Below are positions 32,378 to 35,559 of a stretch of 35,559 nucleotides of DNA, piece after piece. Source of the stretch: Chitinophagaceae bacterium (lineage in GTDB: Bacteria > Bacteroidota > Bacteroidia > Chitinophagales > Chitinophagaceae); contig JAHEMN010000020.1 in NCBI GenBank assembly GCA_024643645.1, forward strand, positions 1 to 35,559. Direction: 5' to 3'. The number at the start of each line of letters is the position of its first letter. Position 1 is the stretch's first letter. A program made the position numbers and the translations under genes. The notes under the pieces were generated by a model, which was not told the DNA's origin, searched no databases, and saw only the letters and a program-made list of their open reading frames with translations.

Positions 32378-34051
32378 ATGGACAGAAGAGATTTTTTAAC
32401 TGCAAAACGCCGTAAGGCTAAAGCAGTTCAGGATACTGCTCCTATTCAAACTTTTCGTACAAACTCTGGTATCAATACTTATACAGGTCTATGGACAGAG
32501 AATGAAATCGTTCATTTATTGAAAAGGACCATGTTTGGTGCAACGAAAGCCGACATTTCCTATTTCAAAACAAGGACGCTGAATCAGGCTGTAAATGAGT
32601 TATTAAATCCTACTGCTCCTGATCCGGCATTACCGGTAAAAGAATATACAACTTCAACTCAACCGGGTACACCTGATGGTAATATTGCTCAGGGAAGTAC
32701 ATGGGTTAATGATATCAATAATGATGGAACAGTTCAGTCACAACGGAGAGCTTCATACAAAAAATGGTTTACCGGAAATTTGATCAATCAGGATAGAAGC
32801 ATCCGTGAAAAACTGATCATGTTTTTGATCGATCATTTTGGAAATGAAGCATCTGATGTAGGTAATGCTAATTGGATCTATCAGCAACATATGTTGATAC
32901 GCCAAAATGCTCTGGGCAATTATAAAAACCTTATTACTAATATAACGAAGGATATTGCCATGCTTCGCTATTTAAATGGTTATCTTAACCAGGCATCGGC
33001 ACCCGATGAGAATTATGCAAGGGAATTAATGGAGCTGTTTACATTAGGAAAAGGAAAAGATTCAAAGTATACAGAAAATGATGTTAAAGAAGCTGCTAAG
33101 GTTTTAACCGGTTGGCAAATAAATGGAACTACATACACAAGTTTTTTTAATGCTAACAGACATAGTACTGCCAATAAAACATTCTCCGCTTTTTTTAATA
33201 ATACGGTAATAACAGGACGTACGGGTGCTACTGCCGGAGATATTGAATTGGCGGATCTTGTGAATATGATCTTTGCCCAGCAGGAGGTTGCAAAATATAT
33301 AGTTAGAAAGGTCTATCGCTGGTTTGTGTACTATACCATAGATGATGCAACTGAGACAAACGTAATTACGCCTTTGGCTGAAATCTTCCGAACAAATAAT
33401 TATGAGATCAAACCGATGCTATCAGCTTTATTCAAAAGTGAGCATTTCTTTGATATGCTGAATAGAGGTTGTATGATCAAAAATCCTGCTGATCATGTAA
33501 TTGGTTCATTGCGGGAAATGAATGCGGCATTTCCTGTTTCTACTGATTGGAATACCAGTTATGGATTATGGAATACATTTTATTCATGGATGGTAACAAC
33601 CGGCCAGGATCTGCATGATCCACCCAATGTATCGGGTATGCCGGCATATTATCAGGAGCCTTCTTTTCATGAGTTATGGATCAATTCTGATTCATTGCCA
33701 AAAAGAAATCAGTTTACTGATATAATGATCAATACTGGTTATGTAAGAAATGGTTTCAGGGTAAGATTTGATTGTGTAGCATTTGCACAATCACTTACAA
33801 ATCCCGGTAATCCAAACGATCTGATTGATGAAGCTCTGTCTGTTTTTTTCAGAAATGATTTATTGATACAGACAAAAGCTCAGATAAAAACGCAGATTCT
33901 ATTGACAGGACAACAATGGGATTATTACTGGACAAATGCATGGGCTGCTTATATATCTAATCCGACCACAGCAAATTATAATACGGTGAATACAAGATTG
34001 AAAACATTAATACAATATTTTTTCAATTTGTCTGAATACCAGTTAGCATAA
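32378..34051 (+). CDS. DUF1800 domain-containing protein
   Basis: HLLKRTMFGATKADI, HFGNEASDVGNANWIYQQHMLIRQNALGNYKNLI, ENYARELMELFTLGKG...YTENDVKEAAKVLTGW; typical DUF1800. Confidence 0.93.
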   Translation: MDRRDFLTAKRRKAKAVQDTAPIQTFRTNSGINTYTGLWTENEIVHLLKRTMFGATKADISYFKTRTLNQAVNELLNPTAPDPALPVKEYTTSTQPGTPDGNIAQGSTWVNDINNDGTVQSQRRASYKKWFTGNLINQDRSIREKLIMFLIDHFGNEASDVGNANWIYQQHMLIRQNALGNYKNLITNITKDIAMLRYLNGYLNQASAPDENYARELMELFTLGKGKDSKYTENDVKEAAKVLTGWQINGTTYTSFFNANRHSTANKTFSAFFNNTVITGRTGATAGDIELADLVNMIFAQQEVAKYIVRKVYRWFVYYTIDDATETNVITPLAEIFRTNNYEIKPMLSALFKSEHFFDMLNRGCMIKNPADHVIGSLREMNAAFPVSTDWNTSYGLWNTFYSWMVTTGQDLHDPPNVSGMPAYYQEPSFHELWINSDSLPKRNQFTDIMINTGYVRNGFRVRFDCVAFAQSLTNPGNPNDLIDEALSVFFRNDLLIQTKAQIKTQILLTGQQWDYYWTNAWAAYISNPTTANYNTVNTRLKTLIQYFFNLSEYQLA

Positions 34052-34077
34052 TATTCAATTTCATTTTAATTGATAAT

Positions 34078-35559
34078 ATGAAAAGAAGAGATTTTTTACT
34101 TAATACAATTCCGGCGGCAGCCATTTTGCCTGATGTCATCAATGGCTATTCTGTAAAAGCATTCAATGTTAATTCACCATTGGTGCAGGCATTGATGCGT
34201 GGCAATACACTTACCGATCATGTGCTTGTTATTATTCAGTTGTCCGGTGGAAATGATGGATTGAATATGGTGATACCGGTTGATGCCGGTTATGCTAATT
34301 ATCTGAATGCCCGAAGCAATGTAGCAATTCCACAAAACAGGGTTTTGCCAATAGCCGGTGTTTCAGGTACAGGTATACATACTGCTATGACTGGTTTGCA
34401 ATCTTTATTCAATGAAGGAAAAGCGAAAGTTATACAGGCAGTTGGATATCCGCAACCAAACTTCTCTCACTTCAGAGCTACAGATATATGGATGAGTGGT
34501 TCCAATAGTAACCAGGAAGTGTATAGCGGTTGGGCCGGAAGATATTTGAATTATGAATACCCGAATTTCCCGGCAGGTTATCCGACCACTGAAATGCCTG
34601 ATCCACTAGCCATTCAAATTGGTTCAAGTACTACTCTCACCTCACAAGGCCCGACAGCAAATATGGGTATGAGTATTACTAATCCAACATCGTTTTATAA
34701 TTTAATTAATGGTACTACTGACCCTGCACCGGCAACACCTGCAGGTAAAGAGTTGACATATATCCGGACAGTAAATCAACAAACTCAGCAATACTCTTCT
34801 GTAATTAAAGATGCTGCCAATGCAGTAACACAACAAGGAACTTATCCTTCAAACAATTCGTTAGGCGATCAATTAAAAATCGTTGCCCGTTTGGTTAAAG
34901 GAGGCCTAAGAACAAGAGTGTACATGGTTAGCTTTGGCGGGTTTGATACACACTCAGTACAAGTAAATTCAGGTGATACGACAACAGGTGCACATGCTAC
35001 TTTATTACAAAGGGTTTCTGATGCAATAAAGGCCTTTCAGGATGATCTGAAATTTTTGGGTGTAGAAGATAGAGTAGTAGGGATGACGTATAGTGAATTT
35101 GGAAGACGTATCAAATCAAATTCAAGTACAGGTACCGATCATGGAGCTGCAGCACCTATGTTCTTATTTGGTACAAATATAGAATCAGGTATGCTTGGTG
35201 TAAATCCTACTATTCCGGCAAATGCAACGGTGAATGATAATATTCCTATGCAATATGATTTCAGAAGTATCTATGCAACGTTACTTGAAAAATGGTTTTG
35301 TCTCGATAAGACTGTGGTGGATTCATTATTCCCTCCGAATATCAATTCACAATTACAAAGCTTGCCATTGATAAAAGCAGGTACATGTAATTCAACATCA
35401 CCACCACCAGCTACTGATGCAACGGCAATGGTTACCAATTATCCGAATCCATTTACTTCTGCTACTACTATTAAATTTAAAACCCAGGGAGGTCATACTT
35501 TAATTCAGATCATAGATACGTTGGGTAGAGTGATTAAAGTACCTGTTGATCAGGAATAT
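34078..35559 (+). CDS. DUF1501 domain-containing protein with T9SS type A C-terminal domain (3' end outside window)
   Basis: Own translation from ATG 34078, open to window end: MKRRDFLLNTIPAAAILPDVINGY...VLVIIQLSGGNDGLNMVIP...YSEFGRRIKSNSSTGTDHGAAAPMFLFG...VTNYPNPFTSATTIKFKTQGGHTLIQIIDTLGRVIK. Absent from the ORF track because it is truncated. Confidence 0.93.
   Translation, partial: MKRRDFLLNTIPAAAILPDVINGYSVKAFNVNSPLVQALMRGNTLTDHVLVIIQLSGGNDGLNMVIPVDAGYANYLNARSNVAIPQNRVLPIAGVSGTGIHTAMTGLQSLFNEGKAKVIQAVGYPQPNFSHFRATDIWMSGSNSNQEVYSGWAGRYLNYEYPNFPAGYPTTEMPDPLAIQIGSSTTLTSQGPTANMGMSITNPTSFYNLINGTTDPAPATPAGKELTYIRTVNQQTQQYSSVIKDAANAVTQQGTYPSNNSLGDQLKIVARLVKGGLRTRVYMVSFGGFDTHSVQVNSGDTTTGAHATLLQRVSDAIKAFQDDLKFLGVEDRVVGMTYSEFGRRIKSNSSTGTDHGAAAPMFLFGTNIESGMLGVNPTIPANATVNDNIPMQYDFRSIYATLLEKWFCLDKTVVDSLFPPNINSQLQSLPLIKAGTCNSTSPPPATDATAMVTNYPNPFTSATTIKFKTQGGHTLIQIIDTLGRVIKVPVDQEY

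Follow-up and report, generated by a model that had tools for sequence, protein, structure and literature searches.

Possible piggyback export of a DUF1800 protein on its Tat-type DUF1501 partner in a Chitinophagaceae bacterium

Does a protein that begins with a twin-arginine motif and has no hydrophobic region behind it leave the cytoplasm, and if so, by what route? The question is raised by two genes at the end of a 35,559-nt stretch of DNA (the window; contig JAHEMN010000020.1, here C80) from a Chitinophagaceae bacterium. The first, at 32378..34051 on the + strand, encodes a DUF1800 protein of 557 aa (PF08811; E 2.7e-90, 304 bits versus a gathering score of 26.1), the proposed signal-less hitchhiker subunit. 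The second, at 34078..35559 (+), encodes a DUF1501 protein (PF07394; E 1.2e-18, 67.9 bits versus a gathering score of 27), the proposed carrier with a Tat signal, of which 494 aa can be read before contig C80 ends inside the open reading frame. The open reading frames agree with the original prediction that the genes lie 26 nt apart on the same strand (spacer 34052..34077, +), the median gap across 165 homologous pairs being 22 nt, and the RRDFL that it placed at the start of both proteins is seen in both N-termini, MDRRDFLTAKRRKAKAVQD for DUF1800 and MKRRDFLLNTIPAAAIL for DUF1501. A thiolase gene sits upstream of the pair, with no chitin synthase there, and a second DUF1800-DUF1501 pair of a different subfamily is found on contig C96 of the same genome.

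The pairing itself is already known and widespread. DUF1501-DUF1800 operons, built of the identical two Pfam families, have been described at bacterial chitin synthase loci, where the Tat motif on DUF1501 was also noted (PMC5122149); unlike the reading offered below, the accessible part of that report proposes neither a complex nor hitchhiking. Recurrence in Bacteroidetes and Planctomycetes had been stated for this pairing, and a broader survey bears this out: a DUF1501 gene lies directly downstream of 228 of the 239 DUF1800 genes having enough flanking sequence, at loci from five phyla (Bacteroidota, Planctomycetota, Verrucomicrobiota, Hydrogenedentota and Pseudomonadota), an adjacency far beyond chance. 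Among 150 genomes of the host family, DUF1800 is present in 126, every one of which also has DUF1501, and the 16 genomes that lack DUF1501 all lack DUF1800 too. The family contains three DUF1800 subfamilies: A, of about 620–700 aa with its own Sec-type signal; B, of about 490 aa with no signal; and C, of about 540–580 aa, to which the window protein belongs. In 177 of 177 cases the nearest DUF1501 relative was paired with the same DUF1800 subfamily, indicating no partner swapping. Some loci depart from the simple arrangement: tandem DUF1800 copies precede a single DUF1501 at L075, L071 and L095; at L209 a DUF1800 domain lies at the end of a far larger protein, with an open frame of 1168 aa, that is followed by an RR-bearing DUF1501; and at L063 a subfamily C DUF1800 without its own signal has no DUF1501 within 4.3 kb downstream.

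In some relatives both genes are in the same frame, so that read-through of the stop codon yields a natural single chain for AlphaFold2. Two such chains were modeled, with alignments of 149 rows (27 paired) and 139 rows (25 paired). The read-through of L078, a subfamily C pair whose proteins are about 74% and 72% identical to those of the window, gave a pLDDT of 87.1 and a pTM of 0.75, and that of L033, a subfamily B pair, gave a pLDDT of 89.6 and a pTM of 0.89 with a disordered linker at residues 485–525. A further complete pair close to that of the window, L055, shows about 73% identity to it, much like L078. Since two confidently modeled domains whose relative placement is not fixed would be expected, by our own estimate, to give a pTM of about 0.5–0.55, contact is predicted in both runs; the lower value for L078 is explained by its free sorting domain and tails. 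In place of the two-chain prediction suggested earlier for the window pair, these single-chain read-throughs of two homologous pairs predict a cognate DUF1800-DUF1501 heterodimer in two subfamilies.

Several lines of evidence bear on the carrier. Although no relatives of DUF1501 turned up among PDB sequences, Foldseek searches with the models of the two homologous pairs placed it with sulfatases, LtaS and YejM (probability 0.9–1.0), with modest E-values (5e-5 to 1e-2) from queries that comprised two proteins and were homologues of the window protein. An alkaline phosphatase superfamily fold is thus predicted. The stretch at 34255..35142 (+) holds residues that are near-invariant by conservation (D60, S130, H131, D290, H292, E340, D354 and H355); as putative metal or catalytic residues these are compatible with a two-metal hydrolase, the active-site assignment following from the predicted fold. 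At the N-terminus, conservation and signal score mark a candidate Tat-type signal, MKRRDFLLNTIPAAAILPDVINGYSVKAF (34078..34164, +), with RRxF and a moderate h-region. Across the DUF1501 family R3 is conserved at 100%, R4 at 90% and F6 at 98%, and RR is present in 255 of 257 members. We scored signals as a hydrophobic segment after the start codon with positive charge, for which the null has a median of 0 and a 99% point of 1.11; DUF1501 scores are unimodal and the window protein reaches 1.30. The TAT_signal model TIGR01409 matches just 1 of 30 DUF1501s, and weakly. With an RRxF n-region, an h-region and Tat genes in the host all found, as for a Tat substrate, we infer that DUF1501 is exported by Tat.

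The hydrophobic stretch that the original prediction saw in DUF1501 therefore stands, as the score of 1.30 shows, while its T9SS sorting domain is seen only in part: the start of a type A C-terminal sorting domain lies at 35419..35559 (+), judged from profile scores and relatives, and, being cut by the contig end, it scores under the curated cut-offs (PF18962, 20.4 of 27 bits; TIGR04183, 17.8 of 23). A T9SS domain was found in 19 of 30 sampled DUF1501 relatives (best E about 2e-12), and in a homologue model the C-terminal domain of a subfamily C DUF1501 matches the mirolase T9SS domain 8qb1. The host genome encodes TatC, TatA and the T9SS component SprA. TatC occurs in 131 of 133 good genomes of the family and is so nearly universal that its co-occurrence with the pair is uninformative as a test; no TatC match was found in one genome listed as 100% complete that has the pair (G142, locus L065), which may reflect an assembly gap. 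The T9SS cargo treated in the literature is said to leave by Sec (PMC9251779), and we know of no precedent for a Tat-then-T9SS route.

The DUF1800 partner presents a different picture at its N-terminus. Its signal score of -0.78, against the null median of 0, is lower in hydrophobicity than that of random internal protein segments, in keeping with the earlier reading that it has no hydrophobic segment, and a stop codon six codons before its ATG means that none has been missed through a wrongly chosen start. Like a hitchhiker subunit, the window DUF1800 has no export signal of its own. Among 241 DUF1800s the scores are bimodal, with 59 having a signal, 177 having none and 5 unclear, and at least 11 changes of signal state are needed on the tree. 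Sec signals are found in Planctomycetota, Betaproteobacteria and subfamily A, and other DUF1800s have lipoprotein signals or Tat-lipoprotein-like ones such as TRRDVLRWGALGAAFATLPGC. Two Planctomycetota loci, L195 and L197, encode DUF1800s with their own Tat-lipoprotein-like N-termini, L195 having no directly adjoining DUF1501. Unpaired DUF1800s were also considered as an own-signal group, and this was not used, the 10 cases being divided about half and half.

The original prediction had named homologues that routinely carry their own signal as evidence against piggybacking, and about a quarter (59 of 241) do carry one. Because the DUF1800 signal has come or gone at least 11 times while the Tat signal of the partner stays, DUF1800 is probably active outside the cytoplasm; the own-signal homologues point to such an extracytoplasmic function and do not refute piggybacking in the lineage of the window. 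They also point to hitchhiking as a lineage-specific state, not a family rule. For DUF1800s that lack a signal, a ride on the partner would most simply account for export. For the window clade no close outgroup offers a full signal beyond question, so that signal loss and primary absence both fit.

What remains at the DUF1800 N-terminus is the motif. The codons for MDRRDFL (32378..32398, +) encode what the clade alignment and signal score identify as a twin-arginine n-region motif that no hydrophobic region follows, and in place of the h-region the clade alignment and a homologue model show a hydrophilic, variable extension (32399..32512, +); residues 1–27 of L078 have pLDDT values under 50, and the extension is mostly predicted to be disordered in that homologue. 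The window clade comprises 75 DUF1800s (support 99), and RR, RK or KR occurs near the start in 43 of them. Of these 43, 34 have F at RR+3, 39 have L or F at RR+4, and 34 have D or N before RR. Entropy is 0.3–0.5 bits at the arginines, which were the criterion for choosing these members, 1.4–1.5 at F and L/F, which were not, and 2.8–4.0 across the next 15 hydrophilic positions. As F and L/F are conserved while the following 15 positions vary, the RRxF(L/F) motif is most likely held by selection even though no h-region follows. The alignment of homologous N-termini proposed earlier thus recovers the h-region-less motif in 43 of the 75 clade members and finds the other 32 without it, most of the latter having a shortened N-terminal extension; within the host family, the motif was gained or lost at least 6 times across 44 members of class C. 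A tie between the DUF1800 motif and the DUF1501 T9SS domain was considered and rejected: the raw counts were plausible, and with 3 pairs there were no independent contrasts.

The remainder of DUF1800 is predicted from homologue models to be mostly helical, and the window protein keeps the near-invariant residues of the family (E144, H153, R175, E211, N212, R215, E216, E219, D235 and R443). No relatives were found in a PDB sequence search. Comparison of profiles matched DUF1800 to PSD1/DUF1553 with E 3.2e-5 and a score of 50.7, where 12 reversed or shuffled controls reached at most 20.4 and DUF1501 gave 16.8. DUF1800 and PSD1/DUF1553 thus appear remotely related, and this kinship perhaps extends to DUF1549, to which there are two weaker collinear matches, neither significant alone, and which is likewise a DUF1501 partner. 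In genomes of the same family another DUF1501 subfamily (L272–L287; about 480–510 aa, RR N-termini) has a large protein of about 770–1090 aa upstream in 16 of 16 sampled loci. The two of these that were scanned are PSCyt1-PSCyt2(DUF1549)-PSD1(DUF1553) proteins, and the 15 that were aligned are 37–60% identical to the first. As in the window pair, DUF1501 lies directly downstream of its partner; unlike DUF1800, these partners contain a cytochrome c-type domain, and most of them show a hydrophobic signal of their own at the N-terminus. From the profile link and this gene order together, DUF1501 appears to work with one partner superfamily. The h-region-less RRxF(L/F) motif and the apparent homology of DUF1800 with PSD1/DUF1553 are what is new here.

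On balance, the probable reading is that the two gene products form a cognate heterodimer that leaves the cytoplasm on the signals of one subunit. DUF1501, as a putative alkaline-phosphatase-superfamily hydrolase, would bear the Tat signal and, in the window subfamily, the T9SS sorting domain; DUF1800, predicted to be all-helical with a conserved polar center and lacking a usable signal, would fold onto DUF1501 in the cytoplasm and be carried through Tat as a hitchhiker; and complexes whose carrier bears a T9SS domain would go on through SprA to the cell surface. The piggyback export first suggested for this pair, together with surface delivery and enzymatic activity, is a reading of sequences and models. 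The predicted complex, the Tat-type partner, the signal-less DUF1800s of the clade and the Tat and T9SS genes of the host speak for the piggyback idea, and the own-signal quarter of homologues confines it to certain lineages.

Such an arrangement resembles the known Tat hitchhiker complexes, which include NiFe hydrogenases and formate dehydrogenases (PMC10924467), E. coli PaoABC (PMC4273604) and the Burkholderia FAD-GDH with its hitchhiker protein (PMC6719666), in that one gene unit provides an RR-signalled subunit and a signal-less one, predicted to assemble before export. It differs in that the window pair has no redox-cofactor family, its predicted carrier being an alkaline-phosphatase-superfamily protein that adds a T9SS domain, and in that hitchhiking by DUF1800 would alternate with own signals within the family.

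The conserved motif allows different interpretations: it may be a docking relic as in NarG/NarJ, or it may still be read by TatC. NarG remains on the cytoplasmic side, and its N-terminus with NarJ is a reported case of a remnant twin-arginine region used for docking; DUF1800 likewise starts with a twin-arginine-like stretch and is not exported by a signal of its own. If the likeness were complete, the clade DUF1800s would have become cytoplasmic, with MDRRDFL a leftover Tat n-region that serves some other role, for example docking of a chaperone or partner before export, and the conservation of RRxF(L/F) without an h-region fits this well. We consider it unlikely, however, as DUF1501 looks exported and a tight complex is predicted, and as, unlike NarG, many DUF1800 homologues bear export signals and would be exported by them.

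It is highly unlikely that the two proteins occupy separate compartments, being neighbors merely through a common pathway or regulon. Operon neighbors often do not bind, and no natural DUF1800-DUF1501 fusion was found among the loci examined; against this stand the complex predicted in two subfamilies, the strict co-segregation of the pair, and the own-signal DUF1800s, which place both proteins outside. Scarcely plausible is export of DUF1800 independently of its partner by a minimal Tat signal made of RRxFL and the polar stretch, for while the motif fits the SRRxFLK consensus (PMC13323110) and a short hydrophobic remnant, MKRRDMLFALPSAISSLSAPG, is present in clade member L247, the window N-terminus is less hydrophobic than random internal segments, 32 of 75 clade members have no motif at all, and, although n-region binding by TatC is specific, TatB clamps the h-region in the TatBC structure (PMC13323110).

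Hitchhiking on DUF1501 can also be taken a step further, in a form that we regard as distinctly unlikely. In it, a single subunit would supply the signals with which the folded two-protein complex crosses both membranes in turn, first by Tat and then by the T9SS, and the hitchhiker would keep its h-region-less RR motif because this is still recognized, for instance at a second TatC site of the multivalent TatBC complex or as an assembly check.

DUF1800 and DUF1501 proteins are common yet uncharacterized in Bacteroidota, Planctomycetota and Pseudomonadota, and the predicted complex and its export route would give a first handle on them. A Tat hitchhiker that also used the T9SS would, to our knowledge, be the first of that kind. 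As one and the same subunit occurs with Sec, lipoprotein, Tat-like or no signals, the family may serve as a natural experiment on the origin of hitchhiking, and the kinship with PSD1/DUF1553 suggests that a single superfamily of helical proteins supplies the partners of DUF1501 enzymes.
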